Positions 5,451 to 64,000 of a stretch of 64,000 nucleotides of DNA are shown here, piece by piece. This DNA is from Meghimatium bilineatum (taxonomy: Eukaryota; Mollusca; Gastropoda; Stylommatophora; Philomycidae), in the NCBI GenBank assembly GCA_034231615.1, contig CM067316.1:29255714-29319713 (forward strand), read 5' to 3'. Numbering within the stretch: the first letter of the stretch is position 1; each line of letters starts with the position of its first letter. The notes beneath the pieces are model-generated. The model was given only the letters and a program-made list of their open reading frames with translations. It did no database searches and was not told where the DNA came from. Made by a program: the position numbers and the translations under genes.

Positions 5451-6454
5451 TAGTGCAGCTTAATGCGTCAGAACACTGGCGTATACACACGAATTGGGTG
5501 TACTGCAGTTTAGTACGCTAAAACACGTTGTATTCTGGAACATTACTCACAATTTCATTGTACCGCAGCTTACTACACTGGAATTGAGTGTATGCTGGCC
5601 TATTACACATAATTTCGTTGTAGTGCAGCTTAATACTTCAGATAACAGTCGTATTACACACGAATTGGGTGTATTGCAGTTGACTACGTCACAACTCGTA
5701 GTATTCTGGCATATTACTCACAAATTCATTGTACTGAAGCTTACTACACTAGAATTGAGTGTATTTTGGCCTATAACACATGATTTCGTTGTACTGCAGC
5801 TTAATACATCAGAACACTGGCGTATTACACAAGAATTGGGTGTATTGCAGTTTAGTACGCTAAAACTCGTTGTATTCTGGCATATTACTCACAAATTCAT
5901 TGTACTGAAGCTTACTACACTAGAATTGAGTGTATTCTGGCCTATTACACATGATTTCGCTGTAGTGCAGCTTAATACTTCAGAACACTGGCGGATTACA
6001 CACGAATTGGGTGTATTGCAGTTTACTACGTCAGAACTCGTTGTATTCTGGCATATTACTCACAAATGTATTGTACTGAAGCTTACCACACTAGAATTGA
6101 GTCTATTCTGGCCTATTACACATGATTTCGTTGTATTGCAGCTTAATACTTCAGAACACTGGCGGAATATACACGAACTGGGTGTACTGCAGTTTAGTAC
6201 GCCAAAACTCGTTGTATTCTGGAATATTACTCACAAGTTCATTGCACTGAAGCTTACTACACTAGAATTGAGGGTATTCTGGCCTATTACACATGATTTC
6301 GTTGTACTGCAGCTTAATACATCAGAACACTGGCGTATTACACAAGAATTGGGTGTATTGCAGTTTAGTACGCTAAAACTCGTTGTATTCTGGCATATTA
6401 ATCACAAATTCATTGCACTGAAGCTTACTACACTAGAATTGAGTGTATACTAGC
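5451..6454 (+). repeat. Satellite, 171-bp monomers, proximal block
   Basis: First homogeneous monomers. A representative monomer is 5872-6042; the next begins exactly 171 bp later at 6043 with the same GTATTCTGGCATATTACTCA. Each monomer contains three related sub-units, two of 60 nt and one of 51 nt, and carries HindIII (AAGCTT) and frequent PstI (CTGCAG) sites. The frame 5494-6453 is open for 319 codons. This block recurs at 34751-35710 at an offset of 29,257 bp. Confidence 0.93.
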
Positions 6455-16534: not shown

Positions 16535-19091
16535 GTGCAGCTTAATACTTCAGAACACTGGCGGATTAAACACGAATTGGGTGTACTGCAGTTTAGTACG
16601 CCAAAACTCGTTGTATTCCTGAATATTAATCACAAGTTCATTGCACTGAAGCTTACTACACTAGAATTGAGGGTATTCTGGCCTATTACACATGATTTCG
16701 TTGTACTGCAGCTTAATACATCAGAACACTGGCGTATTACATACGAATTGGGTGTATTCAGTTTAGTACGCCAAACTCGTTGTATTCTGGTATATTACTC
16801 ACAAATTCATTGTACTGAAGCTTACTACATTAGCATTGAGTGTATTCTGGCCCATTACTCATGATTTCGTTGTACTGCAGCTTAATACATCAGAACACTG
16901 GCGTATTACACAAGAATTGGGTGTATTGCAGTTTAGTAAATCAAATCTCGTTGTATTCTGGGACATTACTCATAAATTCATTGTAGTGAAGATTACTACA
17001 CTAGAATTGAGTGTATTCTGGCCTATTACACATTATTTCTCTGTAGTGCAGCTTAATACTTCAGAACACTGGCGGATTACACACGAATTGGGTGTACTGC
17101 AGTTTAGTACGCTAAAACTCGTTGTATTATGGCATATTACTCACAAATTCATTGTACTGAAGCTTACTACACTAGAATTGAGTGTATTCTGGCCTATTAC
17201 ACATGATTTCGCTGTAGTGCAGCTTAATACTTCAGAACACTGGCGGATTACACACGAATTGGGTGTATTGCAGTTTACTACGTCAGAACTCGTTGAATTC
17301 TGGCATATTACTCACAAATTCATTGTACTGAAGCTTACTACATTAGAATTGAGTGTATTCTGGCCCATTACACAAGATTTCGTTGTATTGCAGGTTAATA
17401 CTTCAGAACACAAACGTATTAAACACGAATTGGGTGTAATGCAGTTTAGTACGCCAAAACTCGTTGTATTCTGGCATATTACTCATAAATTCATTGTACT
17501 GAAGGTTACTACACTAGAATTGAGTGTATTCTGGCCTATTACACATGATTTCGCTGTAGTGCAGCTTAATTCTTCAGAACACTGGCGGATTACACACGAA
17601 TTGGGTGTATTGCAGTTTACTACGTCAGAACTCGTTGTATTCTGGCATATTACTCACAAATGTATTGTACTGAAGCTTACCACACTAGAATTGAGTCTAT
17701 TCTGGCCTATTACACATGATTTCGTTGTATTGCAGCTTAATACTTCAGAACACTGGCGGATTAAACACGAATTGGTTGTACTGCAGTTTAGTACGCCAAA
17801 ACACGTTGTATTCTGGAATATTACAAGTTCATTGCACTGAAGCTTACTACACTAGAATTGAGGGTATTCTGGCCTATTACACATGATTTCGTTGTACTGC
17901 AGCTTAATACATCAGAACACTGGCGTATTACACAAGAATTGGGTGTATTGCAGTTTAGTACGCTAAAACTCGTTGTATTCTGGCATATTAATCACAAATT
18001 CATTGCACTGAAGCTTACTACACTAGAATTGAGTGTATACTAGCCTATTGCACATGATGTAGTTGTATTGCAGCGTAACACGTCAGAACAATGGCGTATC
18101 ACATACGAATTGGGTGTATTCAGTTTAGTACGCCAAAACTCGTTGTATTCTGGTATATTACTCACAAATTCATTGTAATGAAGCTTACTACACTAGAATT
18201 GAGTGTATTTTGGCCTATTACACATGATTTCGTTGTATTGCAGCTTAATGCGTCAGAACACTGGCGTATACACACGAATTGGGTGTACTGCAGTTTAGTA
18301 CGCTAAAACTCGTTGTATTATGGCATATTACTCACAAATTCATTGTACTGAAGCTTACTACACTAGAATTGAGTGTATTCTGGCCTATTACACATGATTT
18401 CGCTGTAGTGCAGCTTAATACTTCAGAACACTGGCGGATTACACACGAATTGTGTGTATTGCAGTTTACTACGTCAGAACTCGTTGTATTCTGGCATATT
18501 ACTCACAAATTTATTGTACTGAAGCTTACCACACTAGAATTGAGTCTATTCTGGCCTATTACACATGATTTCGTTGTATTGCAGCTTAATACTTCAGAGC
18601 ACTGTCGTATTACACACGAATTGGGTGTATTGCAGTTTACTACGTCACAACTCGTTGTATTCTGGCATATTACTCACAAATACATTGTACTGAAGCTTAC
18701 TACACTAGAATTGAGTGTATTCTAGCCTATTGCACATGATTTCGTTGTATTGCAGCTTAATACTTCAAAACACTGTCGTATTACACAAGAATTGGGTGTA
18801 TTGCAGTTTACTATGTCACAATTCGTTGTATTCTGGCATATTACTCACAAATTCATTGTACTGAAGCTTACTACACTAGAATTGAGTGTATTCTAGCCTA
18901 TTGCACATGATTTCGTTGTATTGCAGCTTAATACGTCAGAACACTGGCATATTACACAAGAATTGTGTGTATTGCAGTTTAGTACGCCAAAACAAGTTGT
19001 ATTCAGGGATATTACTCACAAATTCATTGTACTGAAGCTTACGACACTAGAATTGAGTGTATTCTAGCCTATTACACATGATTTCGTTGTA
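16535..19091 (+). repeat. 2,557-bp HOR, copy 5, variant Y
   Basis: Directly repeats copy 4 with exact 2,557-bp spacing of all markers. A small difference (CTCGTAGTATTC in copy 4 near 16094, CTCGTTGTATTC here near 18651) shows it is not a literal copy. It is the last complete unit before the LINE-bearing units. Confidence 0.9.
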
Positions 19092-19889
19092 GTGCAGCTT
19101 AATACTTCAGAACACTGGCGGATTAAACACGAATTGGGTGTACTGCAGTTTAGTACGCCAAAACTCGTTGTATTCCTGAATATTAATCACAAGTTCATTG
19201 CACTGAAGCTTACTACACTAGAATTGAGGGTATTCTGGCCTATTACACATGATTTCGTTGTACTGCAGCTTAATACATCAGAACACTGGCGTATTACACA
19301 AGAATTGGGTGTAATGCAGTTTAGTACATCAAATCTCGTTGTATTCTGGGACATTAATCACAAATTAATTGCACTGAAGCTTACTACACTAGAATTGAGT
19401 GTATACTAGCCTATTGCACATGATGTAGTTGTATTGCAGCGTAATACGTCAGAACAATGGCGTATCACATACGAATTGGGTGTATTCAGTTTAGTACGCC
19501 AAAGTCGTTGTATTCTGGTATATTACTCACAAATTCATTGTACTGAAGCTTACTACATTAGCATTGAGTGTATTCTGGCCCATTACTCATGATTTCGTTG
19601 TACTGCAGCTTAATACATCAGAACACTGGCGTATTACACAAGAATTGGGTGTATTGCAGTTTAGTAAATCAAATCTCGTTGTATTCTGGGACATTACTCA
19701 TAAATTCATTGTAGTGAAGATTACTACACTAGAATTGAGTGTATTCTGGCCTATTACACATTATTTCGCTGTAGTGCAGCTTAATACTTCAGAACACTGG
19801 CGGATTACACACGAATTGGGTGTATTGCAGTTTACAACGTCAGAACTCGTATTCTGGCATATTACTCACAAATTTATTGTACTGAAGCT
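19092..19889 (+). repeat. Partial 2,557-bp HOR unit interrupted by the LINE
   Basis: Follows the HOR for about 800 bp, then stops within CTGAAGCT at the LINE 5' junction. Just upstream it carries two junction-specific variants: TTTACAACG instead of TTTACTACG, and a 3-bp deletion giving CTCGTATTCTGG. Both are shared by the flanks of LINE copies 2 and 3, which marks a common origin. Confidence 0.9.
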
Positions 19890-22140
19890 GGTCCACAGGT
19901 AATGTACCACAGGCGTGGAGAGAAGCAATAATGATACCACTCCTCAAATCAGGAAAAGATGGCAACACAGTCTCCAACTACAGGCCCATCAGCCTCACAA
20001 GCTGTCTATGTAAAACAATGGAACGCATTATCAATCTTAGGATGCAGTGGTACCTTGAAAGTGAAAACCTTCTGGTATCACAGCAAGCAGGTTTCAGACA
20101 GTGCTACTCTACTGAAGATCAGGCAACCTACCTCTCCCAAGAGATTGAGGATGCCTTCCAAGAAAAGAAACTGGTACTAGCAGCATGGATAGACCTCAGG
20201 AAAGCATTTGATAAGGTCTGGAAAGAAGGGCTCCTAAAGAAATTGCGAAATTGCAGGGTTAGCTCAAGAATGTACAAATGGGTAAAAGCATACCTGCATA
20301 ATAGAAGAGCCAGGGTACAATTAGATGGTCGCAAGAGCAAGAAAGTTCTACTGCGTCATGGAGTCCCCCAGGGAGGAGTCCTGTCACCCACACTTTTCTT
20401 GGTTTACATCAATGACCTAGTTGCTGAACTACCTCACGGGATCAAAGTGGCAATGTATGCTGACGACCTGGTGATCTGGTGCACGGAAGAACATGCAACA
20501 GTGGCCACTAAACAAATACAAAGAGCTATCGATGCCCTAACCTTATGGGCTAATAGATGGTGCGTCAGCATTAACACAGATAAGTGCAGCACTACACTCT
20601 TTACCCTCTCACCAAAACAAAAAGCTGGTCATATCAAGATAGATGGAGAGCTCTTGAAAGAAGACAAACAACCCACATACCTCGGAGTTACTTTTGATGA
20701 TAAGCTGACATGGAAGCAGCACATAAACAAAGCAACAACAAAAGCCAGGAGGAAGCTAGCTATCCTGAGAAAACTAAGTGGAACCACATGGGGAGCCAGT
20801 GGAAATATACTCAGTAAAGTTTACCAGCAAGGCATAAGACCACACCTGGAATACGGTTCAGCTGCGTGGTGTCCTGCATCAAACACCACATTACAAGATC
20901 TAGATAAAGTGCAAAACCAGGCACTTAGAATAATGTTGGGAGCAATGAAATCAACACCCATAGCAGAGATGCAGAAAATGGGAAGAATGCAAACACTTGG
21001 CGAACGCAGAGACACAAAAGTACTAATTCAAGCAGAAAAGTTTCAGTGTATGCCAAGTCATCCAATGAAGGAAAGATTCCAAAATCTAGCAATGGGACGA
21101 CTGAAAAGGAGCAGCTTTATCCATCAAGCTAAACGACTCCGTAGACAACTTACAGACCTACCTGAAGTTGGCAGCCCCTTAAGGTCTGTACCAGAGCAAA
21201 TCCCGTGGAGTGAAAGCCATGGAATGCCAATATACATTCAGACCCATGTGAAAGGAATACTAAGCGAGGACGAACAGAACAGTGTGCAGCGAATGACAAT
21301 CACCCTCAGTTTCCTGGATGAGGAATATCCACAAGATATATGGGTCAGAGTGTACACAGATGGGTCAGCACAGAATGCTGTGAGGAATGGAGGTGCAGGT
21401 GTATATATAGAATATCCACACAAGCCTAGAGATACAATCAGAACACCGACAGGAAAATTCTGCAATAATTATGATGCAGAAATCCAGGCAATTAGTGTGG
21501 CAGCTAAAAAACTGCTGAACTCCAACTCTGACCTACAGCCTGTGGTATTCCTGACAGATGCAAGGTCAGTGCTTCAAGCTCTCCAGTCTGGAAAACTAAC
21601 AGACTTAAAAAAACTACTTAGCGAATTGTCTTACCAGTATAGGGTAACCATGCAGTGGATACCCTCTCACTGTGGAATACCAGGAAATGAAAAAGCAGAC
21701 CAACTGGCTAAGGAAGGTGCTGCCGAAGACCAACCAGATATACCAATCACCTACCATCAGAAAAAACAGATGATAAAGTCAATAAGAAAGCCACAAACAC
21801 CAACACAAGATGACTATCACAATATGAACAGATCAGAACAAGTTATAATTCTACGTCTCAGAACAGGACACAACCGACTCCGCAGTCACATGTATACAAA
21901 GTTCAAGATTGGCAACACGGCCATGTGTACATGTGGACAGGCAGCACAGAGTGCCAAACATATACTTCAAGAGTGTTCTGAGCATGAAACGCTGAGGCAG
22001 ACATATTGGCCAGAGGAAACAACACTGGAATCAAAACTCTATGGGACACTGTATGAACTACAAAAGACAGTGAGTTTTATTAAGGAGACAGAATTACAGA
22101 TATAGACATGTTTCAAGTGAACGAAAGAAGAAGACGAAGA
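19890..22140 (+). mobile_element. 5'-truncated RNase H-bearing LINE, copy 1
   Basis: About 2.25 kb of non-satellite, more GC-rich sequence. At the 5' end the reading frame begins inside the RT N-terminal region (in-frame codons before the ATG read like GNVPQAWREAI), so the endonuclease, any ORF1 and the 5' UTR are absent. The 3' UTR is only ~35 bp and ends in a GAA-rich tail (AAGAAGAAGACGAAGA), not poly-A. Comparing with HOR copy 5, the satellite resumes about 431 bp further along the unit than it stopped, so target DNA is missing at this site. No target-site duplication is evident. Confidence 0.92.
19931..22105 (+). CDS. LINE ORF2 fragment: reverse transcriptase - RNase H, copy 1
   Basis: 724 residues, uninterrupted. 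RT: NYRPISLTS (16-24), QQAGFR (51-56), motif A WIDLRKAFD with D88, HGVPQGGVLSP (143-153), motif C YADD (177-180), then LGVTFDDKLTW (251-261, thumb side). RNase H: YTDGS (D477), DAEIQAI (E517), FLTDARS (D543), WIPSHCGIPGNEKAD (H580, D590); all catalytic acidic residues are present. C-terminus: RLRTGHNRLRSHM (642-654) and a C-x-C-x8-H-x4-C motif (666-682) typical of I-group/RNase H LINEs. The APE endonuclease is missing, so it cannot mobilise by itself in the normal way. The ATG is the first in frame after a satellite TGA; the native start lay further upstream. The exact clade (I, Nimb or similar) is not determined. Residue 311 is Ala here, Val in the other copies. Confidence 0.93.
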   Translation: MIPLLKSGKDGNTVSNYRPISLTSCLCKTMERIINLRMQWYLESENLLVSQQAGFRQCYSTEDQATYLSQEIEDAFQEKKLVLAAWIDLRKAFDKVWKEGLLKKLRNCRVSSRMYKWVKAYLHNRRARVQLDGRKSKKVLLRHGVPQGGVLSPTLFLVYINDLVAELPHGIKVAMYADDLVIWCTEEHATVATKQIQRAIDALTLWANRWCVSINTDKCSTTLFTLSPKQKAGHIKIDGELLKEDKQPTYLGVTFDDKLTWKQHINKATTKARRKLAILRKLSGTTWGASGNILSKVYQQGIRPHLEYGSAAWCPASNTTLQDLDKVQNQALRIMLGAMKSTPIAEMQKMGRMQTLGERRDTKVLIQAEKFQCMPSHPMKERFQNLAMGRLKRSSFIHQAKRLRRQLTDLPEVGSPLRSVPEQIPWSESHGMPIYIQTHVKGILSEDEQNSVQRMTITLSFLDEEYPQDIWVRVYTDGSAQNAVRNGGAGVYIEYPHKPRDTIRTPTGKFCNNYDAEIQAISVAAKKLLNSNSDLQPVVFLTDARSVLQALQSGKLTDLKKLLSELSYQYRVTMQWIPSHCGIPGNEKADQLAKEGAAEDQPDIPITYHQKKQMIKSIRKPQTPTQDDYHNMNRSEQVIILRLRTGHNRLRSHMYTKFKIGNTAMCTCGQAAQSAKHILQECSEHETLRQTYWPEETTLESKLYGTLYELQKTVSFIKETELQI

Positions 22141-23927
22141 ACACACGAATTGGGTGTATTGCAGTTTACTACGCCAAAACACGTTGTATTCTGGAATATT
22201 ACAAGTTCATTGCACTGAAGCTTACTACACTAGAATTGAGGGTATTCTGGCCTATTACACATGATTTCGTTGTACTGCAGCTTAATACATCAGAACACTG
22301 GCGTATTACACAAGAATTGGGTGTATTGCAGTTTAGTACGCTAAAACTCGTTGTATTCTGGCATATTAATTACAAATTCATTGCACTGAAGCTTACTACA
22401 CTAGAATTGAGTGTATACTAGCCTATTGCACATGATGTAGTTGTATTGCAGCGTAACACGTCAGAACAATGGCGTATCACATACGAATTGGGTGTATTCA
22501 GTTTAGTACGCCAAAACTCGTTGTATTCTGGTATATTACTCACAAATTCATTGTACTGAAGCTTACTACACTAGAATTGAGTGTATTTTGGCCTATTACA
22601 CATGATTTCGTTGTATTGCAGCTTAATGCGTCAGAACACTGGCGTATACACACGAATTGGGTGTACTGCAGTTTAGTACGCTAAAACTCGTTGTATTATG
22701 GCATATTACTCACAAATTCATTGTACTGAAGCTTACTACACTAGAATTGAGTGTATTCTGGCCTATTACACATGATTTCGCTGTAGTGCAGCTTAATACT
22801 TCAGAACACTGGCGGATTACACACGAATTGGGTGTATTGCAGTTTACTACGTCAGAACTCGTAGTATTCTGGCATATTACTCACAAATTTATTGTACTGA
22901 AGCTTACCACACTAGAATTGAGTCTATTCTGGCCTATTACACATGATTTCGTTGTATTGCAGCTTAATACTTCAGAGCACTGTCGTATTACACACGAATT
23001 GGGTGTATTGCAGTTTACTACGTCACAACTCGTTGTATTCTGGCATATTACTCACAAATACATTGCACTGAAGCTTACTACACTAGAATTGAGTGTATTC
23101 TAGCCTATTGCACATGATTTCGTTGTATTGCAGCTTAATACTTCAAAACACTGTCGTATTACACAAGAATTGGGTGTATTGCAGTTTACTATGTCACAAT
23201 TCGTTGTATTCTGGCATATTACTCACAAATACATTGTACTGAAGCTTACTACACTAGAATTGAGTGTATTCTAGCCTATTGCACATGATTTCGTTGTATT
23301 GCAGCTTAATACGTCAGAACACTGGCATATTACACAAGAATTGTGTGTATTGCAGTTTAGTACGCCAAAACAAGTTGTATTCAGGGATATTACTCACAAA
23401 TTCATTGTACTGAAGCTTACGACACTAGAATTGAGTGTATTCTAGCCTATTACACATGATTTCGTTGTAGTGCAGCTTAATACTTCAGAACACTGGCGGA
23501 TTAAACACGAATTGGGTGTACTGCAGTTTAGTACGCCAAAACTCGTTGTATTCCTGAATATTAATCACAAGTTCATTGCACTGAAGCTTACTACACTAGA
23601 ATTGAGGGTATTCTGGCCTATTACACATGATTTCGTTGTACTGCAGCTTAATACATCAGAACACTGGCGTATTACACAAGAATTGGGTGTATTGCAGTTT
23701 AGTACATCAAATCTCGTTGTATTCTGGGACATTAATCACAAATTAATTGCACTGAAGCTTACTACACTAGAATTGAGTGTATACTAGCCTATTGCACATT
23801 ATTTCGCTGTAGTGCAGCTTAATACTTCAGAACACTGGCGGATTACACACGAATTGGGTGTATTGCAGTTTACAACGTCAGAACTCGTATTCTGGCATAT
23901 TACTCACAAATTTATTGTACTGAAGCT
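22141..23927 (+). repeat. Satellite between LINE copies 1 and 2
   Basis: Resumes at ACACACGAATTGGGTGTATT and follows the second half of the 2,557-bp HOR (marker at 22469), then the next unit's start at 23470. Near 23785-23810 a jump from GCCTATTGCACAT to TATTTCGCTGTAG removes ~340 bp (two monomers) that are present before LINE copy 1. This accounts exactly for the 4,038-bp LINE1-LINE2 period against the 4,378-bp spacing of the 19092 and 23470 markers. Confidence 0.9.
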
Positions 23928-26178
23928 GGTCCACAGGTAATGTACCACAGGCGTGGAGAGAAGCAATAATGATACCACTCCTCAAATCAGGAAAAGATGG
24001 CAACACAGTCTCCAACTACAGGCCCATCAGCCTCACAAGCTGTCTATGTAAAACAATGGAACGCATTATCAATCTTAGGATGCAGTGGTACCTTGAAAGT
24101 GAAAACCTTCTGGTATCACAGCAAGCAGGTTTCAGACAGTGCTACTCTACTGAAGATCAGGCAACCTACCTCTCCCAAGAGATTGAGGATGCCTTCCAAG
24201 AAAAGAAACTGGTACTAGCAGCATGGATAGACCTCAGGAAAGCATTTGATAAGGTCTGGAAAGAAGGGCTCCTAAAGAAATTGCGAAATTGCAGGGTTAG
24301 CTCAAGAATGTACAAATGGGTAAAAGCATACCTGCATAATAGAAGAGCCAGGGTACAATTAGATGGTCGCAAGAGCAAGAAAGTTCTACTGCGTCATGGA
24401 GTCCCCCAGGGAGGAGTCCTGTCACCCACACTTTTCTTGGTTTACATCAATGACCTAGTTGCTGAACTACCTCACGGGATCAAAGTGGCAATGTATGCTG
24501 ACGACCTGGTGATCTGGTGCACGGAAGAACATGCAACAGTGGCCACTAAACAAATACAAAGAGCTATCGATGCCCTAACCTTATGGGCTAATAGATGGTG
24601 CGTCAGCATTAACACAGATAAGTGCAGCACTACACTCTTTACCCTCTCACCAAAACAAAAAGCTGGTCATATCAAGATAGATGGAGAGCTCTTGAAAGAA
24701 GACAAACAACCCACATACCTCGGAGTTACTTTTGATGATAAGCTGACATGGAAGCAGCACATAAACAAAGCAACAACAAAAGCCAGGAGGAAGCTAGCTA
24801 TCCTGAGAAAACTAAGTGGAACCACATGGGGAGCCAGTGGAAATATACTCAGTAAAGTTTACCAGCAAGGCATAAGACCACACCTGGAATACGGTTCAGT
24901 TGCGTGGTGTCCTGCATCAAACACCACATTACAAGATCTAGATAAAGTGCAAAACCAGGCACTTAGAATAATGTTGGGAGCAATGAAATCAACACCCATA
25001 GCAGAGATGCAGAAAATGGGAAGAATGCAAACACTTGGCGAACGCAGAGACACAAAAGTACTAATTCAAGCAGAAAAGTTTCAGTGTATGCCAAGTCATC
25101 CAATGAAGGAAAGATTCCAAAATCTAGCAATGGGACGACTGAAAAGGAGCAGCTTTATCCATCAAGCTAAACGACTCCGTAGACAACTTACAGACCTACC
25201 TGAAGTTGGCAGCCCCTTAAGGTCTGTACCAGAGCAAATCCCGTGGAGTGAAAGCCATGGAATGCCAATATACATTCAGACCCATGTGAAAGGAATACTA
25301 AGCGAGGACGAACAGAACAGTGTGCAGCGAATGACAATCACCCTCAGTTTCCTGGATGAGGAATATCCACAAGATATATGGGTCAGAGTGTACACAGATG
25401 GGTCAGCACAGAATGCTGTGAGGAATGGAGGTGCAGGTGTATATATAGAATATCCACACAAGCCTAGAGATACAATCAGAACACCGACAGGAAAATTCTG
25501 CAATAATTATGATGCAGAAATCCAGGCAATTAGTGTGGCAGCTAAAAAACTGCTGAACTCCAACTCTGACCTACAGCCTGTGGTATTCCTGACAGATGCA
25601 AGGTCAGTGCTTCAAGCTCTCCAGTCTGGAAAACTAACAGACTTAAAAAAACTACTTAGCGAATTGTCTTACCAGTATAGGGTAACCATGCAGTGGATAC
25701 CCTCTCACTGTGGAATACCAGGAAATGAAAAAGCAGACCAACTGGCTAAGGAAGGTGCTGCCGAAGACCAACCAGATATACCAATCACCTACCATCAGAA
25801 AAAACAGATGATAAAGTCAATAAGAAAGCCACAAACACCAACACAAGATGACTATCACAATATGAACAGATCAGAACAAGTTATAATTCTACGTCTCAGA
25901 ACAGGACACAACCGACTCCGCAGTCACATGTATACAAAGTTCAAGATTGGCAACACGGCCATGTGTACATGTGGACAGGCAGCACAGAGTGCCAAACATA
26001 TACTTCAAGAGTGTTCTGAGCATGAAACGCTGAGGCAGACATATTGGCCAGAGGAAACAACACTGGAATCAAAACTCTATGGGACACTGTATGAACTACA
26101 AAAGACAGTGAGTTTTATTAAGGAGACAGAATTACAGATATAGACATGTTTCAAGTGAACGAAAGAAGAAGACGAAGA
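23928..26178 (+). mobile_element. 5'-truncated RNase H-bearing LINE, copy 2
   Basis: Same 5' truncation point, same satellite junctions and same tail (AAGAAGAAGACGAAGA) as copy 1, 4,038 bp downstream. Apart from one C-to-T change (Ala311Val) I saw no difference from copy 1 by eye. Sharing both junctions means it arose by duplication of the LINE together with flanking satellite, not by a new retrotransposition. Confidence 0.92.
23969..26143 (+). CDS. LINE ORF2 fragment: reverse transcriptase - RNase H, copy 2
   Basis: 724-residue open frame, with all RT (D88, YADD 177-180) and RNase H (D477, E517, D543, H580, D590) key residues intact. Its translation equals copy 1 except Val at 311, within the GSVAWC segment downstream of the RT core, and equals copy 3 throughout. 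The upstream in-frame codons again run straight into satellite, so no promoter or endonuclease region was captured. Expression would depend on read-through from satellite transcription. Intactness probably reflects recent amplification rather than selection. Confidence 0.93.
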   Translation: MIPLLKSGKDGNTVSNYRPISLTSCLCKTMERIINLRMQWYLESENLLVSQQAGFRQCYSTEDQATYLSQEIEDAFQEKKLVLAAWIDLRKAFDKVWKEGLLKKLRNCRVSSRMYKWVKAYLHNRRARVQLDGRKSKKVLLRHGVPQGGVLSPTLFLVYINDLVAELPHGIKVAMYADDLVIWCTEEHATVATKQIQRAIDALTLWANRWCVSINTDKCSTTLFTLSPKQKAGHIKIDGELLKEDKQPTYLGVTFDDKLTWKQHINKATTKARRKLAILRKLSGTTWGASGNILSKVYQQGIRPHLEYGSVAWCPASNTTLQDLDKVQNQALRIMLGAMKSTPIAEMQKMGRMQTLGERRDTKVLIQAEKFQCMPSHPMKERFQNLAMGRLKRSSFIHQAKRLRRQLTDLPEVGSPLRSVPEQIPWSESHGMPIYIQTHVKGILSEDEQNSVQRMTITLSFLDEEYPQDIWVRVYTDGSAQNAVRNGGAGVYIEYPHKPRDTIRTPTGKFCNNYDAEIQAISVAAKKLLNSNSDLQPVVFLTDARSVLQALQSGKLTDLKKLLSELSYQYRVTMQWIPSHCGIPGNEKADQLAKEGAAEDQPDIPITYHQKKQMIKSIRKPQTPTQDDYHNMNRSEQVIILRLRTGHNRLRSHMYTKFKIGNTAMCTCGQAAQSAKHILQECSEHETLRQTYWPEETTLESKLYGTLYELQKTVSFIKETELQI

Positions 26179-27795
26179 ACACACGAATTGGGTGTATTGC
26201 AGTTTACAACGCCAAAACACGTTGTATTCTGGAATATTACAAGTTCATTGCACTGAAGCTTACTACACTAGAATTGAGGGTATTCTGGCCTATTACACAT
26301 GATTTCGTTGTACTGCAGCTTAATACATCAGAACACTGGCGTATTACACAAGAATTGGGTGTATTGCAGTTTAGTACGCTAAAACTCGTTGTATTCTGGC
26401 ATATTAATTACAAATTCATTGCACTGAAGCTTACTACACTAGAATTGAGTGTATACTAGCCTATTGCACATGATGTAGTTGTATTGCAGCGTAACACGTC
26501 AGAACAATGGCGTATCACATACGAATTGGGTGTATTCAGTTTAGTACGCCAAAACTCGTTGTATTATGGCATATTACTCACAAATTCATTGTACTGAAGC
26601 TTACTACACTAGAATTGAGTGTATTCTGGCCTATTACACATGATTTCGCTGTAGTGCAGCTTAATACTTCAGAACACTGGCGGATTACACACGAATTGGG
26701 TGTATTGCAGTTTACTACGTCAGAACTCGTTGTATTCTGGCATATTACTCACAAATTTATTGTACTGAAGCTTACCACACTAGAATTGAGTCTATTCTGG
26801 CCTATTACACATGATTTCGTTGTATTGCAGCTTAATACTTCAGAGCACTGTCGTATTACACACGAATTGGGTGTATTGCAGTTTACTACGTCACAACTCG
26901 TTGTATTCTGGCATATTACTCACAAATACATTGTACTGAAGCTTACTACACTAGAATTGAGTGTATTCTAGCCTATTGCACATGATTTCGTTGTATTGCA
27001 GCTTAATACTTCAAAACACTGTCGTATTACACAAGAATTGGGTGTATTGCAGTTTACTATGTCACAATTCGTTGTATTCTGGCATATTACTCACAAATAC
27101 ATTGTACTGAAGCTTACTACACTAGAATTGAGTGTATTCTAGCCTATTGCACATGATTTCGTTGTATTGCAGCTTAATACGTCAGAACACTGGCATATTA
27201 CACAAGAATTGTGTGTATTGCAGTTTAGTACGCCAAAACAAGTTGTATTCAGGGATATTACTCACAAATTCATTGTACTGAAGCTTACGACACTAGAATT
27301 GAGTGTATTCTAGCCTATTACACATGATTTCGTTGTAGTGCAGCTTAATACTTCAGAACACTGGCGGATTAAACACGAATTGGGTGTACTGCAGTTTAGT
27401 ACGCCAAAACTCGTTGTATTCCTGAATATTAATCACAAGTTCATTACACTGAAGCTTACTACACTAGAATTGAGGGTATTCTGGCCTATTACACATGATT
27501 TCGTTGTACTGCAGCTTAATACATCAGAACACTGGCGTATTACACAAGAATTGGGTGTATTGCAGTTTAGTACATCAAATCTCGTTGTATTCTGGGACAT
27601 TAATCACAAATTAATTGCACTGACGCTTACTACACTAGAATTGAGTGTATACTAGCCTATTGCACATTATTTCGCTGTAGTGCAGCTTAATACTTCAGAA
27701 CACTGGCGGATTACACACGAATTGGGTGTATTGCAGTTTACAACGTCAGAACTCGTATTCTGGCATATTACTCACAAATTTATTGTACTGAAGCT
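26179..27795 (+). repeat. Satellite between LINE copies 2 and 3
   Basis: Same arrangement as the stretch between copies 1 and 2 but about 170 bp shorter. One monomer is lost near 26540-26570, where CAGTTTAGTACGCC runs directly into CTCGTTGTATTATGG, fusing two frames into a 154-codon one at 26507-26971. This gives the 3,868-bp LINE2-LINE3 period. The start after the LINE has TTTACAACGCC, echoing the TTTACAACG variant upstream of the LINE. Confidence 0.9.
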
Positions 27796-30046
27796 GGTCC
27801 ACAGGTAATGTACCACAGGCGTGGAGAGAAGCAATAATGATACCACTCCTCAAATCAGGAAAAGATGGCAACACAGTCTCCAACTACAGGCCCATCAGCC
27901 TCACAAGCTGTCTATGTAAAACAATGGAACGCATTATCAATCTTAGGATGCAGTGGTACCTTGAAAGTGAAAACCTTCTGGTATCACAGCAAGCAGGTTT
28001 CAGACAGTGCTACTCTACTGAAGATCAGGCAACCTACCTCTCCCAAGAGATTGAGGATGCCTTCCAAGAAAAGAAACTGGTACTAGCAGCATGGATAGAC
28101 CTCAGGAAAGCATTTGATAAGGTCTGGAAAGAAGGGCTCCTAAAGAAATTGCGAAATTGCAGGGTTAGCTCAAGAATGTACAAATGGGTAAAAGCATACC
28201 TGCATAATAGAAGAGCCAGGGTACAATTAGATGGTCGCAAGAGCAAGAAAGTTCTACTGCGTCATGGAGTCCCCCAGGGAGGAGTCCTGTCACCCACACT
28301 TTTCTTGGTTTACATCAATGACCTAGTTGCTGAACTACCTCACGGGATCAAAGTGGCAATGTATGCTGACGACCTGGTGATCTGGTGCACGGAAGAACAT
28401 GCAACAGTGGCCACTAAACAAATACAAAGAGCTATCGATGCCCTAACCTTATGGGCTAATAGATGGTGCGTCAGCATTAACACAGATAAGTGCAGCACTA
28501 CACTCTTTACCCTCTCACCAAAACAAAAAGCTGGTCATATCAAGATAGATGGAGAGCTCTTGAAAGAAGACAAACAACCCACATACCTCGGAGTTACTTT
28601 TGATGATAAGCTGACATGGAAGCAGCACATAAACAAAGCAACAACAAAAGCCAGGAGGAAGCTAGCTATCCTGAGAAAACTAAGTGGAACCACATGGGGA
28701 GCCAGTGGAAATATACTCAGTAAAGTTTACCAGCAAGGCATAAGACCACACCTGGAATACGGTTCAGTTGCGTGGTGTCCTGCATCAAACACCACATTAC
28801 AAGATCTAGATAAAGTGCAAAACCAGGCACTTAGAATAATGTTGGGAGCAATGAAATCAACACCCATAGCAGAGATGCAGAAAATGGGAAGAATGCAAAC
28901 ACTTGGCGAACGCAGAGACACAAAAGTACTAATTCAAGCAGAAAAGTTTCAGTGTATGCCAAGTCATCCAATGAAGGAAAGATTCCAAAATCTAGCAATG
29001 GGACGACTGAAAAGGAGCAGCTTTATCCATCAAGCTAAACGACTCCGTAGACAACTTACAGACCTACCTGAAGTTGGCAGCCCCTTAAGGTCTGTACCAG
29101 AGCAAATCCCGTGGAGTGAAAGCCATGGAATGCCAATATACATTCAGACCCATGTGAAAGGAATACTAAGCGAGGACGAACAGAACAGTGTGCAGCGAAT
29201 GACAATCACCCTCAGTTTCCTGGATGAGGAATATCCACAAGATATATGGGTCAGAGTGTACACAGATGGGTCAGCACAGAATGCTGTGAGGAATGGAGGT
29301 GCAGGTGTATATATAGAATATCCACACAAGCCTAGAGATACAATCAGAACACCGACAGGAAAATTCTGCAATAATTATGATGCAGAAATCCAGGCAATTA
29401 GTGTGGCAGCTAAAAAACTGCTGAACTCCAACTCTGACCTACAGCCTGTGGTATTCCTGACAGATGCAAGGTCAGTGCTTCAAGCTCTCCAGTCTGGAAA
29501 ACTAACAGACTTAAAAAAACTACTTAGCGAATTGTCTTACCAGTATAGGGTAACCATGCAGTGGATACCCTCTCACTGTGGAATACCAGGAAATGAAAAA
29601 GCAGACCAACTGGCTAAGGAAGGTGCTGCCGAAGACCAACCAGATATACCAATCACCTACCATCAGAAAAAACAGATGATAAAGTCAATAAGAAAGCCAC
29701 AAACACCAACACAAGATGACTATCACAATATGAACAGATCAGAACAAGTTATAATTCTACGTCTCAGAACAGGACACAACCGACTCCGCAGTCACATGTA
29801 TACAAAGTTCAAGATTGGCAACACGGCCATGTGTACATGTGGACAGGCAGCACAGAGTGCCAAACATATACTTCAAGAGTGTTCTGAGCATGAAACGCTG
29901 AGGCAGACATATTGGCCAGAGGAAACAACACTGGAATCAAAACTCTATGGGACACTGTATGAACTACAAAAGACAGTGAGTTTTATTAAGGAGACAGAAT
30001 TACAGATATAGACATGTTTCAAGTGAACGAAAGAAGAAGAAGAAGA
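27796..30046 (+). mobile_element. 5'-truncated RNase H-bearing LINE, copy 3
   Basis: Third copy with the same ends, 3,868 bp after copy 2. The tail differs by one base, giving a purer GAA repeat (AAGAAGAAGAAGAAGA) where copies 1 and 2 have GACGAAGA. It is the last LINE-bearing unit; beyond about 30180 the satellite changes to another HOR type. Confidence 0.92.
27837..30011 (+). CDS. LINE ORF2 fragment: reverse transcriptase - RNase H, copy 3
   Basis: 724 residues, translation identical to copy 2. Domain order and catalytic residues are as in copy 1: RT motif A D88, YADD at 177-180, RNase H D477/E517/D543/D590, C-terminal C-x-C-x8-H-x4-C at 666-682. Copies 2 and 3 share Val311 while copy 1 has Ala, so 2 and 3 are the closest pair, consistent with their sharing the 340-bp upstream satellite deletion. 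The endonuclease is missing, as in the others. Confidence 0.93.
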   Translation: MIPLLKSGKDGNTVSNYRPISLTSCLCKTMERIINLRMQWYLESENLLVSQQAGFRQCYSTEDQATYLSQEIEDAFQEKKLVLAAWIDLRKAFDKVWKEGLLKKLRNCRVSSRMYKWVKAYLHNRRARVQLDGRKSKKVLLRHGVPQGGVLSPTLFLVYINDLVAELPHGIKVAMYADDLVIWCTEEHATVATKQIQRAIDALTLWANRWCVSINTDKCSTTLFTLSPKQKAGHIKIDGELLKEDKQPTYLGVTFDDKLTWKQHINKATTKARRKLAILRKLSGTTWGASGNILSKVYQQGIRPHLEYGSVAWCPASNTTLQDLDKVQNQALRIMLGAMKSTPIAEMQKMGRMQTLGERRDTKVLIQAEKFQCMPSHPMKERFQNLAMGRLKRSSFIHQAKRLRRQLTDLPEVGSPLRSVPEQIPWSESHGMPIYIQTHVKGILSEDEQNSVQRMTITLSFLDEEYPQDIWVRVYTDGSAQNAVRNGGAGVYIEYPHKPRDTIRTPTGKFCNNYDAEIQAISVAAKKLLNSNSDLQPVVFLTDARSVLQALQSGKLTDLKKLLSELSYQYRVTMQWIPSHCGIPGNEKADQLAKEGAAEDQPDIPITYHQKKQMIKSIRKPQTPTQDDYHNMNRSEQVIILRLRTGHNRLRSHMYTKFKIGNTAMCTCGQAAQSAKHILQECSEHETLRQTYWPEETTLESKLYGTLYELQKTVSFIKETELQI

Positions 30047-30393
30047 ACACACGAATTGGGTGTATTGCAGTTTACAACGCCAAAACACGTTGTATTCTGG
30101 AATATTACAAGTTCATTGCACTGAAGCTTACTACACTAGAATTGAGGGTATTCTGGCCTATTACACATGATTTCGTTGTATTGCAGCTTAATACTTCAAA
30201 ACACTGGCGTATTACACACGAATTGGGTGTATTGCAGTTTATTATGTCACAATTCGTTGTATTCTGGCATATTACTCACAAATTCATTGTACTGAAGCTT
30301 ACTACACTAGAATTGAGTGTATTCTAGCCTATTGCACATGATGTCGTTGTATTGCAGCTTAATACGTCAGAACACTGGCATATTACACAAGAA
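30047..30393 (+). repeat. Satellite, transition after LINE block
   Basis: 171-bp family monomers. The first ~130 bp match the sequence after LINE copies 1 and 2, then the array switches to monomers with TTCAAAACACTGGCG and TTTATTATGTCACAATTC variants before the diverged island begins. Confidence 0.85.
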
Positions 30394-31271
30394 TTGGGTG
30401 TACTGCAGTTCAGTACGCCACAAATCAGTGTATTCTGGAATATTAATCACAAATTCAATGTACTGAAGCTTACTACACTAGAATTTAGTGTATTATGGCC
30501 GATTAAACATGATTTCGTTGTATTGCAACATAATACGTCAGAACACAGGCGTATTACACACAAATTAGGTCTCTTGCTGTTTAGTACGCCAAAACTCGGT
30601 GTATTCTGGCATATTACTCACAAATTCGGTGTACTGCAGCTTACTACACCAGAAATTGTATTCTGGACAACGAATTTGGTGTATTGTAGCTCACTGCGCC
30701 AGAACGGTGTATTCTGGCATATTACTCACAAATTGAATGTACTGTAACTTACTACAACAGAACTCTCTATATCATGGCCTATTACACATGATTTCGTTGT
30801 ATTGCAGCTTAATACGTCAGAACACTGGCGTATCACACACAAATTAGGTCTCTTTCTGTTTAGTACGTCAAAAATCGGTGTATTTAACATATTACTCACA
30901 AATTCAATGTACTGAAGCTTACTCAACTAGAATTTAGTGTATTCTGGCATATTACACATGATTTCGTTGTTTTGCAGCTTACCACGTCAGAACACTGACG
31001 TATTACACACAAATTAGGTCTCTTGCTGTTTAGTACGTCAAAACTCGGTGTTCTTTGGCATATTACTCACAAATTCAATGTACTGAAGCTTACTACACCA
31101 TAACAGTGCACTCTTGACACACGAATATGGTATATTGTAGCTTTCTATGTCAGAACTGGCGTATTACAAAACAATTGGGTGTATTGCAGTTTAGTATGTG
31201 AGAACTCGGTGTATTCTGGCATATTACTCACAAATTCAATGTACCCAAGCTTACTACTCAAGAATTGAGTG
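30394..31271 (+). repeat. Island of old diverged satellite (copy of 4543-5420)
   Basis: About 880 bp of the diverged satellite type otherwise confined to the left edge. It aligns with 4543-5420 at an offset of 25,851 bp: the 66-codon minus frame at 30726-30926 has the same translation as 4875-5075, and distinctive strings such as CTCTCTATATCATGGCC and GCCGATTAAACATG are shared. It lies inside homogeneous satellite, so it was moved or duplicated as a block. Confidence 0.9.
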
Positions 31272-34105
31272 TATTCTGGTCTATTACACATGATTTCGTT
31301 GTATTGCAGCTTAATACTTCAGAACACTGGCGGATTACACACGAATTGGGTGTATTGCAGTTTACTATGTCAGAACTCGTTGTATACTGGTATATTACTC
31401 ACAAATTCATTGTACTGACGTTTACTACACTAGAATTGAGTGTATTTTGGCCTATTACACATGATTTCGTTGTATTGCAGCTTAATGCGTCAGAACACTG
31501 GCGTATACACACAAATTGGGTGTACTGCAGTTTAGTACGCTAAAACACGTTGTATTCTGGAACATTACTCACAATTCCATTGTACCGAAGCTTACTACAC
31601 TGGAATTGAGTGTATTCTGGCCTATTACACATAATTTCGTTGTAGTGCAGCTTAATACTTCAGATAACTGTCGTATTACACACGAATTGGGTGTATTGCA
31701 GTTGACTACGTCACAACTCGTTGTATTCTGGCATATTACTCACAAATGTATTGTACTGAAGCTTACCACACTAGAATTGAGTCTATTCTGGCCTATTACA
31801 CATGATTTCGTTGTATTGCAGCTTAATACTTCAGAACACTTGCGGAATATACACGAACTGGGTGTACTGCAGTTTAGTACGCCAAAACTCGTTGTATTCT
31901 GGAATATTACTCACAAGTTCATTGCACTGAAGCTTACTACACTAGAATTGAGGGTATTCTGGCCTATTACACATGATTTCGTTGTACTGCAGCTTAATAC
32001 ATCAGAACACTGGCGTATTACACAAGAATTGGGTGTATTGCAGTTTAGTACGCTAAAACACGTTGTATTCTGGAACATTACTCACAATTTCATTGTACCG
32101 CAGCTTACTACACTGGAATTGAGTGTATGCTGGCCTATTACACATAATTTCGTTGTAGTGCAGCTTAATACTTCAGATAACAGTCGTATTACACACGAAT
32201 TGGGTGTATTGCAGTTGACTACGTCACAACTCGTAGTATTCTGGCATATTACTCACAAATTCATTGTACTGAAGCTTACTACACTAGAATTGAGTGTATT
32301 TTGGCCTATAACACATGATTTCGTTGTACTGCAGCTTAATACATCAGAACACTGGCGTATTACACAAGAATTGGGTGTATTGCAGTTTAGTACGCTAAAA
32401 CTCGTTGTATTCTGGCATATTACTCACAAATTCATTGTACTGAAGCTTACTACACTAGAATTGAGTGTATTCTGGCCTATTACACATGATTTCGCTGTAG
32501 TGCAGCTTAATACTTCAGAACACTGGCGGATTACACACGAATTGGGTGTATTGCAGTTTACTACGTCAGAACTCGTTGTATTCTGGCATATTACTCACAA
32601 ATGTATTGTACTGAAGCTTACCACACTAGAATTGAGTCTATTCTGGCCTATTACACATGATTTCGTTGTATTGCAGCTTAATACTTCAGAACACTGGCGG
32701 AATATACACGAACTGGGTGTACTGCAGTTTAGTACGCCAAAACTCGTTGTATTCTGGAATATTACTCACAAGTTCATTGCACTGAAGCTTACTACACTAG
32801 AATTGAGGGTATTCTGGCCTATTACACATGATTTCGTTGTACTGCAGCTTAATACATCAGAACACTGGCGTATTACACAAGAATTGGGTGTATTGCAGTT
32901 TAGTACGCTAAAACTCGTTGTATTCTGGCATATTAATCACAAATTCATTGCACTGAAGCTTACTTCACTAGAATTGAGTGTATACTAGCCTATTGCACAT
33001 GATGTAGTTGTATTGCAGCGTAACACGTCAGAACAATGGCGTATCACATACGAATTGGGTGTATTCAGTTTAGTACGCCAAAACTCGTTGTATTCTGGTA
33101 TATTACTCACAAATTCATTGTACTGAAGCTTACTACACTAGAATTGAGTGTATTTTGGCCTATTACACATGATTTCGTTGTATTGCAGCTTAATGCGTCA
33201 GAACACTGGCGGATTACACACGAATTGGGTGTATTGCAGTTTACTATGTCAGAACTCGTTGTATACTGGTATATTACTCACAAATTCATTGTACTGACGT
33301 TTACTACACTAGAATTGAGTGTATTTTGGCCTATTACACATGATTTCGTTGTATTGCAGCTTAATGCGTCAGAACACTGGCGTATACACACAAATTGGGT
33401 GTACTGCAGTTTAGTACGCTAAAACACGTTGTATTCTGGAACATTACTCACAATTCCATTGTACTGAAGCTTACTACACTGGAATTGAGTGTATTCTGGC
33501 CTATTACACATAATTTCGTTGTAGTGCAGCTTAATACTTCAGATAACTGTCGTATTACACACGAATTGGGTGTATTGCAGTTGACTACGTCACAACTCGT
33601 AGTATTCTGGCATATTACTCACAAATTCATTGTACTGAAGCTTACTACACTAGAATTGAGTGTATTTTGGCCTATAACGCATGATTTCGTTGTACTGCAG
33701 CTTAATACATCAGAACACTGGCGTATTACACAAGAATTGGGTGTATTGCAGTTTAGTACGCTAAAACTCGTTGTATTCTGGCATATTACTCACAAATTCA
33801 TTGTACTGAAGCTTACTACACTAGAATTGAGTGTATTCTGGCCTATTACACATGATTTCGCTGTAGTGCAGCTTAATACTTCAGAACACTGGCGGATTAC
33901 ACACGAATTGGGTGTATTGCAGTTTACTACGTCAGAACTCGTTGTATTCTGGCATATTACTCACAAATGTATTGTACTGAAGCTTATCACACTAGAATTG
34001 AGTCTATTCTGGCCTATTACACATGATTTCGTTGTATTGCAGCTTAATACTTCAGAACACTTGCGGAATATACACGAACTGGGTGTACTGCAGTTTAGTA
34101 CGCCA
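31272..34105 (+). repeat. Satellite, 3,235-bp HOR copy 1 (main part)
   Basis: 171-bp monomers of the type seen at 5494-6453, with CTGGAATTGAGT and TCAGATAACTGTCG variants. Markers at 31265 and 31516 recur at 34500 and 34751 (3,235 bp). An additional three-monomer (513-bp) block makes the open frame here 490 codons where the downstream copy has 319. It ends where old-type sequence (AAAAATCGGTGTATTTAACA) is joined at about 34106. Confidence 0.85.
31516..32988 (+). other. 490-codon satellite-borne open frame
   Basis: Uninterrupted frame encoding ~8.6 repeats of a 57-residue unit (segments such as ITHDFVVLQLNTSEHWR and FIVLKLTTLELSVFWP). Three sub-units per repeat share the pattern V-L-x-(L/F)-x-T. 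No signal peptide, no known domain and no start context. The frame ends at GTATACTAG, a recurrent satellite variant. Many monomer differences are synonymous in this frame (ACA/ACT/ACG, TTG/CTG, CGT/CGG) but many are not. Most likely an accidental ORF of a 171-nt repeat, whose length is divisible by three; a repeat protein cannot be fully excluded. Confidence 0.3.
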
Positions 34106-59831: not shown

Positions 59832-62800
59832 TTGGGTGTACTGCAGTTTAGTACGCCAAAACTCGTTGTATTATGGCATATTACTCACAAATTCATTGTA
59901 CTGAAGCTTACTACACTAGAATTGAGTGTATTCTGGCCTATTACACATGATTTCGCTGTAGTGCAGCTTAATACTTCAGAACACTGGCGGATTACACACG
60001 AATTGGGTGTATTGCAGTTTACTACGTCAGAACTCGTTGAATTCTGGCATATTACTCACAAATTCATTGTACTGAAGCTTACTACATTAGAATTGAGTGT
60101 ATTCTGGCCCATTACACAAGATTTCGTTGTATTGCAGGTTAATACTTCAGAACACAAACGTATTAAACACGAATTGGGTGTAATGCAGTTTAGTACGCCA
60201 AAACTCGTTGTATTCTGGAATATTACTCACAAGTTCATTGCACTGAAGCTTACTACACTAGAATTGAGGGTATTCTGGCCTATTACACATGATTTCGTTG
60301 TACTGCAGCTTAATACATCAGAACACTGGCGTATTACACAAGAATTGGGTGTATTGCAGTTTAGTACGCTAAAACTCGTTGTATTCTGGCATATTACTCA
60401 TAAATTCATTGTACTGAAGCTTACTACACTAGAATTGAGTGTATTCTGGCCTATTACACATGATTTCGCTGTAGTGCAGCTTAATTCTTCAGAACACTGG
60501 CGGATTACACACCAATTGGGTGTATTGCAGTTTACTACGTCAGAACACGTTGTATTCTGGCATATTACTCACAAATGTATTGTACTGAAGCTTACCACAC
60601 TAGAATTGAGTCTATTCTGGCCTATTACACATGATTTCGTTGTATTGCAGCTTAATACTTCAGAACACTGGCGGATTAAACACGAATTGGTTGTACTGCA
60701 GTTTAGTACGCCAAAACACGTTGTATTCTGGAATATTACAAGTTCATTGCACTGAAGCTTACTACACTAGAATTGAGGGTATTCTGGCCTATTACACATG
60801 ATTTAGTTGTACTGCAGTTTAATACATCAGAACACTGGCGTATTACACAAGAATTGGGTGTATTGCAGTTTAGTACGCTAAAACTCGTTGTATTCTGGCA
60901 TATTAATCACAAATTCATTGCACTGAAGCTTACTACACTAGAATTGAGTGTATACTAGCCTATTGCACATGATGTAGTTGTATTGCAGCGTAACACGTCA
61001 GAACAATGGCGTATCACATACGAATTGGGTGTATTCAGTTTAGTACGCCAAAACTCGTTGTATTCTGGTATATTACTCACAAATTCATTGTACTGAAGCT
61101 TACTACACTAGAATTGAGTGTATTTTGGCCTATTACACATGATTTCGTTGTATTGCAGCTTAATGCGTCAGAACACTGGCGTATACACACAAATTGGGTG
61201 TACTGCAGTTTAGTACGCTAAAACTCGTTGTATTATGGCATATTACTCACAAATTCATTGTACTGAAGCTTACTACACTAGAATTGAGTGTATTCTGGCC
61301 TATTACACATGATTTCGCTGTAGTGCAGCTTAATACTTCAGAACACTGGCGGATTACACACGAATTGGGTGTATTGCAGTTTACTACGTCAGAACTCGTT
61401 GTATTCTGGCATATTACTCACAAATTTATTGGACTGAAGCTTACCACACTAGAATTGAGTCTATTCTGGCCTATTACACGTGATTTCGTTGTATTGCAGC
61501 TTAATACTTCAGAACACTGTCGTATTACACACGAATTGGGTGTATTGCAGTTTACTACGTCACAACTCGTTGTATTCTGGCATATTACTCACAAATACAT
61601 TGTACTGAAGCGTACTACACTAGAATTGAGTGTATTCTAGCCTATTGCACATGATTTCGTTGTATTGCAGCTTAATACTTCAAAACACTGTCGTATTACA
61701 CAAGAATTGGGTGTATTGCAGTTTACTATGTCACAATTCGTTGTATTCTGGCATATTACTCACAAATTCATTGTACTGAAGCTTACTACACTAGAATTGA
61801 GTGTATTCTAGCCTATTGCACATGATTTCGTTGTACTGCAGCTTAATACATCAGAACACTGGCGTATTACACAAGAATTGGGTGTATTGCAGTTTAGTAA
61901 ATCAAATCTCGTTGTATTCTGGGACATTACTCATAAATTCATTGTAGTGAAGATTACTACACTAGAATTGAGTGTATTCTGGCCTATTACACATTATTTC
62001 GCTGTAGTGCAGCTTAATACTTCAGAACACTGGCGGATTACACACGAATTGGGTGTATTGCAGTTTACTACGTCAGAACTCGTTGTATTCTGGCATATTA
62101 CTCACAAATTTATTGTGCTGAAGCTTACTACACTAGAATTGAGCGTATTCTAGCCTATTGCACATGATTTCGTTGTATTGCAGCTTAATACTTCAAAACA
62201 CTGTCGTATTACACACGAATTGGGTGTATTGCAGTTTATTATGTCACAATTCGTTGTATTCTGGCATATTACTCACAAATTCATTGTACTGAAGCTTACT
62301 ACACTAGAATTGAGTGTATTCTAGCCTATTGCACATGATTTCGTTGTATTGCAGCTTAATGCGTCAGAACACTGGCGTATACACACAAATTGGGTGTACT
62401 GCAGTTTAGTACGCTAAAACTCGTTGTATTATGGCATATTACTCACAAATTCATTGTACTGAAGCTTACTACACTAGAATTGAGTGTATTCTGGCCTATT
62501 ACACATGATTTCGCTGTAGTGCAGCTTAATACTTCAGAACACTGGCGGATTACACACGAATTGGGTGTATTGCAGTTTACTACGTCAGAACTCGTTGTAT
62601 TCTGGCATATTACTCACAAATTTATTGGACTGAAGCTTACCACACTAGAATTGAGTCTATTCTGGCCTATTACACATGATTTCGTTGTATTGCAGCTTAA
62701 TACTTCAGAACACTGTCGTATTACACACGAATTGGGTGTATTGCAGTTTACTACGTCACAACTCGTTGTATTCTGGCATATTACTCACAAATACATTGTA

Positions 62801-64000
62801 CTGAAGCGTACTACACTAGAATTGAGTGTATTCTAGCCTATTGCACATGATTTCGTTGTATTGCAGCTTAATACTTCAAAACACTGTCGTATTACACAAG
62901 AATTGGGTGTATTGCAGTTTACTATGTCACAATTCGTTGTATTCTGGCATATTACTCACAAATTCATTGTACTGAAGCTTACTACACTAGAATTGAGTGT
63001 ATTCTAGCCTATTGCACATGATTTCGTTGTATTGCAGCTTAATACGTCAGAACACTGGCATATTACACAAGAATTGTGTGTATTGCAGTTTAGTACGCCA
63101 AAACAAGTTGTATTCAGGGATATTACTCACAAATTCATTGTACTGAAGCTTACGACACTAGAATTGAGTGTATTCTAGCCTATTACACATGATTTCGTTG
63201 TAGTGCAGCTTAATACTTCAGAACACTGGCGGATTAAACACGAATTGGGTGTACTGCAGTTTAGTACGCCAAAACTCGTTGTATTCCTGAATATTAATCA
63301 CAAGTTCATTGCACTGAAGCTTACTACACTAGAATTGAGGGTATTCTGGCCTATTACACATGATTTCGTTGTACTGCAGCTTAATACATCAGAACACTGG
63401 CGTATTACACAAGAATTGGGTGTATTGCAGTTTAGTACATCAAATCTCGTTGTATTCTGGGACATTAATCACAAATTAATTGCACTGAAGCTTACTACAC
63501 TAGAATTGAGTGTATACTAGCCTATTGCACATGATGTAGTTGTATTGCAGCGTAATACGTCAGAACAATGGCGTATCACATACGAATTGGGTGTATTCAG
63601 TTTAGTACGCCAAACTCGTTGTATTCTGGTATATTACTCACAAATTCATTGTACTGAAGCTTACTACATTAGCATTGAGTGTATTCTGGCCCATTACTCA
63701 TGATTTCGTTGTACTGCAGCTTAATACATCAGAACACTGGCGTATTACACAAGAATTGGGTGTATTGCAGTTTAGTAAATCAAATCTCGTTGTATTCTGG
63801 GACATTACTCATAAATTCATTGTAGTGAAGATTACTACACTAGAATTGAGTGTATTCTGGCCTATTACACATTATTTCGCTGTAGTGCAGCTTAATACTT
63901 CAGAACACTGGCGGATTACACACGAATTGGGTGTATTGCAGTTTACTACGTCACAACTCGTTGTATTCTGGCATATTACTCACAAATTTATTGTGCTGAA
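59832..64000 (+). repeat. Satellite, 2,557-bp-family HOR reappears; runs off the window
   Basis: Frames at 59832, 60773, 61006 and 61194 match 11803, 12744, 12977 and 13165 at a constant offset of 48,029 bp, including the rare GATTTAGTTG variant of the X form. A 1,196-bp (seven-monomer) duplication follows (61194 and 62390), then Y-type sequence to the window end (marker at 63203). The array clearly continues beyond 64000. Confidence 0.88.

Follow-up and report, generated by a model that had tools for sequence, protein, structure and literature searches.

Within a stretch of 64,000 nucleotides of Meghimatium bilineatum DNA (hereafter the window), three copies of a LINE lie close together in a satellite array. 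We asked whether these copies inserted separately or descend from one insertion that was multiplied along with the satellite, and by what process the multiplication would have occurred.

The satellite has a period of 171 bp and its array extends from ~3.2 kb to the end of the window. Cutting the array at a conserved anchor yielded 312 intervals, 126 of them distinct, and 33 clusters at a 4% threshold. To the left of the LINE block the array is LINE-free and its higher-order unit is 2,557 bp, as the marker ATTACAAGTTC occurs at five sites separated by this step (7592, 10149, 12706, 15263 and 17820). Positions 7635-9000 match 12749-14114 over 1,366 bp without a difference, and 10192-11557 is identical to 15306-16671. 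The segments composed of monomers KNOLQRST in this region (7635-16671) are of two exact types in alternation, with no differences at a spacing of 5,114 bp, a sign that a double 2,557-bp unit was amplified recently. Past the array edge, the only long stretches of rare 11-mers were the three LINE copies; a few moderately rare 200-bp bins near 30.6, 31.0 and 34.2 kb were divergent satellite. Open frames of up to 500 codons run along the satellite between 5464 and 60755; the 171-bp period is a multiple of 3, and these frames look spurious. An Rfam search gave no matches, and no papers were found when three satellite words were looked up in the literature.

The LINE copies were located as follows.
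19890..22141, + strand, LINE copy 1, 5′-truncated, with reverse transcriptase (RT) and RNase H; open frame 19886-22105
23928..26179, + strand, LINE copy 2
27796..30047, + strand, LINE copy 3

Each copy is 2,252 bp long and carries an open frame of 739 codons, or 724 counted from the first Met. The frame contains an RVT_1 domain (7.4e-40), a YADD motif, an RNase_H domain placed after the RT (residues 487-612, 7.7e-16) and a C-terminal Cys-His motif, CTCG...HILQEC, and the best PDB matches of the protein include LINE-1 ORF2 chains (E ~2e-14). Each copy is a 3′ piece of a non-LTR retrotransposon with a LINE-type RT, which we take to belong to the RNase H-bearing I group. ORF1 and the endonuclease domain are absent from the copies, which are truncated to the RT start; because they begin at this domain, they retain neither an endonuclease nor a promoter region. 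Comparison of the 2,252-bp copy with itself revealed no internal repeat, a result of little weight given that truncation would remove a 5′ repeat. The 3′ end, GAAGAAGACGAAGAA, is similar to GAAGAACGACGATGAAGAAGAA, the end of a minus-strand relative at ~2.1-3.0 kb, and thus suggests a natural 3′ terminus. This relative (2147-2966) is a degraded 3′ fragment of a related LINE that also bears RNase H, and it adjoins the array edge; its frame is broken, its 3′ end is of a similar GAAGAAGAA type, and its amino-acid identity to the LINE is 42% and 50% in the two main pieces and 28% in a third. Apart from this distant relative, no fourth LINE copy was found within the 64-kb window, and no relatives were confirmed among viral contigs or prokaryote genomes, in keeping with the eukaryotic nature of the element. 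Also just outside the array is a nested inverted-repeat hairpin (1150-1746; arms of 80, 83, 44 and 85 nt, 93-99% complementary) that is perhaps a foldback element.

Only two positions vary among the copies over 2,252 bp. Position 973 is C in copy 1 and T in copies 2 and 3, resulting in an Ala/Val change, and position 2246, in the 3′ tail outside the frame, is C, C and A in copies 1, 2 and 3, respectively. The start-to-start spacings are 4,038 and 3,868 bp, of which 1,786 and 1,616 bp is intervening satellite. These values agree with an initial annotation of this sequence, which had described one residue difference in 724 and units composed of the LINE plus 1.6-1.8 kb of satellite. That annotation had also claimed that the copies share the same 5′ truncation and the same satellite junctions, and had named differing truncation points or flanks as evidence against a common origin. 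When we compared the copies, the start and end bases were identical in all three. At the 5′ junction, ...CTGAAGCT is followed by the LINE sequence GGTCCACAGG, and at the 3′ junction ...GAAGAA is followed by the satellite sequence CACACGAATTGGG.

The satellite on either side of each LINE, and the comparable sites elsewhere in the window, are listed here.
19740..19889, + strand, left part of the interrupted W-like monomer, copy 1, including a candidate 82-bp target-site duplication (19808-19889)
22142..22240, + strand, right part of the interrupted monomer, copy 1; W/L-like for ~30 bp and M-like thereafter
23778..23927, + strand, left part of the interrupted monomer, copy 2, with the N/W join of a 340-bp loss; 5 bp in common, 23795-23799
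26180..26278, + strand, right part of the interrupted monomer, copy 2, with the TTTACAACG variant
27646..27795, + strand, left part of the interrupted monomer, copy 3
30048..30146, + strand, right part of the interrupted monomer, copy 3
61973..62143, + strand, complete, uninterrupted insertion-site-type (W-like) monomer with no LINE; a V-type monomer precedes it, as at copy 1
63340..64000, + strand, X-N-V-W stretch that matches 19229-19889 but lacks the private flank changes; cut off by the window end 3 bases before the insertion point

Sequence variants at the junctions are private to the LINE copies. CTCGTATTCTGG occurs at three sites in the window, each beside a 5′ junction. TTTACAACG occurs at 5 of 245 comparable sites, and every one adjoins a LINE junction, three beside the 5′ junctions and two just past the 3′ junctions of copies 2 and 3. 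Junction-specific satellite variants had been reported before and both do adjoin the junctions, although the presence of TTTACAACG on both sides had gone unmentioned. The private changes at the 5′ junction (TTTACAACG and a 3-bp loss resulting in CTCGTATTC) were present in all three copies and in no other left-flank-type context in the window. Compared with X, N, V and the 150 bp of W-like sequence that flank copy 1 on the left, the stretch at 63340-64000 has 2 mismatches over X-N-V, and its W portion has 3 mismatches and a 3-bp gap. This site cannot be called empty because the window stops 3 bases short of the insertion point.

No clean short target-site duplication was seen at the LINE junctions. 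Instead, the insertion may have generated a duplication of ~82 bp, or it may have deleted roughly 86-89 bp of satellite by our arithmetic. Up to 82 bp of the left flank may recur on the right side. In copy 2 the first 32 of these are identical (23846-23877 and 26180-26211), the right flank of copy 3 matches that of copy 2 over these 32 bp, and copy 1 has one difference there. The duplication is favored by the finding that TTTACAACG stands on both sides of the LINE. However, this reading is weakened because the right side of copy 1 has TTTACTACG in place of TTTACAACG and because all three right flanks become M-like past ~30 bp.

The monomer order across the block is ...M KNOLQRSTX NV (LINE1) KNOLQRSTX (LINE2) KNLQRSTX (LINE3) R Z H A B C, with the following segments.
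17863..19399, + strand, array segment of nine monomers, K N O L Q R S T X, presumed to be the left flank before duplication; differs from spacer 1 by 7 mismatches in 1,537
19400..19739, + strand, monomers N and V (169+171 = 340 bp), which lie left of copy 1 but of neither copy 2 nor copy 3
22241..23777, + strand, spacer 1, nine monomers K N O L Q R S T X
26279..27645, + strand, spacer 2, with eight monomers and lacking O (170 bp); tract shared at the join, 26551-26565
30147..31269, + strand, outer flank on the right, an R-like monomer followed by Z H A B C, taken as ancestral; differs from spacers 1 and 2 past 30180

The variant ATTAATTACAAATTC is private to the block, where it occurs at two sites, both in the spacers; the usual form occurs at 34 sites elsewhere. 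Taken together, the shared truncation and junctions, the LINE-free target-type monomer, the private spacer variant and the length differences of exactly whole monomers support the view that the three copies come from one insertion that was co-amplified with the satellite, as the initial annotation had proposed. The region to the right of copy 3 (30149-31440) is 92% identical to the irregular block at the array edge (4298-5588), and edge-type monomers thus turn up again within the array.

We were also able to map where the first duplication would have occurred.
17793..17896, + strand, upstream (source) end of the putative unequal exchange, M/K monomer tract; 104 bp identical to the outer right flank of copy 3
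22171..22274, + strand, putative tract in which the crossover of the first duplication took place; same sequence as 17793-17896 and 30077-30180

After copy 1 the flank of the LINE switches to upstream array sequence inside this 104-bp tract, and the 201 bp to the right of copy 1 (22170-22370) equal the upstream sequence at an offset of 4,378. This is the pattern that a single unequal exchange of the right flank of the LINE with the upstream M/K monomers would produce, with tandem units in the same orientation and one novel junction in homologous sequence. An original unit of 4,378 bp also predicts both observed spacings, since subtracting N and V (340 bp) gives 4,038 and subtracting O (170 bp) from that gives 3,868. 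The exact sequence shared at the joins is 5 bp for the N-V loss and 15 bp for the O loss, and the satellite register is kept at both. For random breakpoints in a 171-bp unit, we estimate that each loss would fall in register about 1 time in 171. Copies 2 and 3 are likely the younger pair because they have T at LINE position 973 and the absence of N-V in common; a shared right-flank base of ambiguous polarity, in TTTACAACG, may also group them. The duplicated block reported previously at 19092-30180 is therefore real but larger, as the sequence copied into the duplicated flank extends leftward to about 17,793.

The following sequence of events would account for this structure. LINE RNA would have been reverse-transcribed into one W-like monomer of the 171-bp satellite, presumably by target-primed insertion, leaving a 5′-truncated, dead-on-arrival copy. 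Misaligned chromatids would then have exchanged in register, with the M-like right flank of the LINE pairing with the upstream M/K monomers within the 104-bp identical tract. This first exchange would have duplicated the 4,378-bp unit, satellite plus LINE. One unit would subsequently have lost two whole monomers (340 bp) and been duplicated again, and in the last step one spacer would have lost one further monomer (170 bp). The common truncation and junctions, the grouping of the copies, the mapped tract and the length steps of whole monomers are seen directly; we infer target-primed insertion, unequal exchange over another homologous process, and the order of events. The mechanism can be narrowed because the first crossover tract and the later whole-monomer losses map in satellite register, and in-register unequal exchange between misaligned satellite copies is the likeliest. 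We consider it probable that a single truncated insertion was followed by in-register unequal exchange and whole-monomer losses.

Some features of the block fit this history less well. Exact identity at the join of the 340-bp loss extends over only 5 bp, and pairing there would therefore have been between diverged monomers, which counts against the explanation. Over K-T, spacer 1 has 6 differences from 17863-19228 and 7 from each of the four units further left; it is thus only marginally nearer to the adjacent left flank than to the more distant units, which also counts against the explanation. Spacers 1 and 2 aligned from the LINE end differ at 5 of 1,464 bases. Units 1 and 2 have 1 difference in 2252 LINE positions vs 5 in 1464 satellite positions (Fisher p = 0.038, a single post hoc test with the 3 N/W-join differences excluded), and a LINE that differs less than the satellite would not be predicted by simple duplication alone. 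When four spacer differences were checked, one had both states elsewhere in the array and three had a state found only here; conversion may have added changes to the spacers.

We considered three other origins for the copies. An excised circle of satellite plus LINE could have been copied by rolling circle and reinserted, or break-induced replication with re-invasion could have produced the extra copies. Both processes have been proposed for satellites in the available part of a review (PMC8122249), and being homology-driven they would equally be expected to give tandem units in register. However, the units are not uniform, as N-V is still present on the left of unit 1 and one spacer has a monomer fewer than the other, and the left source sequence is still in place beside copy 1. 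We regard this origin as unlikely. An assembler could also have strung together a single LINE copy or its allelic copies in such a highly repetitive region, and our analysis covered the assembled sequence. Base changes and whole-monomer indels (340 and 170 bp) distinguish the copies, and the outer flanks on the two sides are unlike each other. We consider an artefact very unlikely, although juxtaposed haplotypes could still yield these differences among copies. Site-specific LINEs in tandem repeats do exist, such as R2 in rDNA (PMC3542110, available text), and three insertions at one satellite position could be imagined on that pattern. Independent insertions would be expected to have differing truncation points, and the identical internal 5′ truncation contradicts this, as do the private flank variants in all three copies and the private variant shared by the spacers. 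We therefore rejected three independent insertions as an extremely improbable origin. In-register unequal exchange following one insertion is the reading that we retain.

Whether the block amounts to a composite higher-order repeat, as had been suggested, depends on scale. A local tandem triplication of ~10 kb is present, but the LINE-bearing unit occurs only three times in 64 kb, whereas a satellite higher-order repeat has a unit repeated many times across the array. These units could instead mark the start of a new composite satellite, with ~4-kb LINE-bearing units spreading in this array and perhaps others, seeded by an insertion with an unusually long (~82 bp) target-site duplication. We think this quite improbable. 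The copy 1 X-N-V-W context recurs at the window end and breaks off 3 bases before the insertion point, which leaves room for a further LINE copy beyond; the private flank changes are absent there.

The LINE acts as a unique tag among near-identical repeats, so that a single assembly suffices to read one exchange tract and the sequence in which events occurred. The locus is thus a compact test case for satellite turnover by in-register exchange and whole-monomer gains and losses. Elements can insert into satellite arrays (PMC12628747, available text). According to the accessible part of PMC9659126, satellite units that carry element sequence include the mariner Mboumar in Messor satellite DNA and CR1 in the chicken HinfI repeat; these resemble our case in that element sequence is carried in a tandem unit, but they are listed as named satellites, whereas ours consists of three units in one 10-kb block. 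The G2/Jockey-3 islands of Drosophila centromeres likewise place LINEs inside tandem-repeat blocks, but as far as the available text of PMC6516634 goes those copies lack a single origin, in contrast to the three copies probably derived from one insertion here. The accessible portions of PMC13103737 and PMC10804481 contained nothing on an element co-amplified in satellite, and the papers that we read on such elements gave no case closer than R2 in rDNA. In the available text of PMC3542110, 5′ truncations were used likewise in Drosophila rDNA to show crossovers that duplicate R2 insertions. Among 386 R2 truncations, 335 occurred once, 41 twice, 9 three times and 1 four times, and the 51 present more than once were termed infrequent. 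The two systems are alike in that a LINE lies within a tandem array, a distinctive 5′ truncation marks one insertion, and crossover adds copies. They differ in that the host array here is a 171-bp satellite with higher-order structure and the LINE is one without demonstrated site specificity. The process is thus already documented, and the present case is a well-resolved further example, in satellite.
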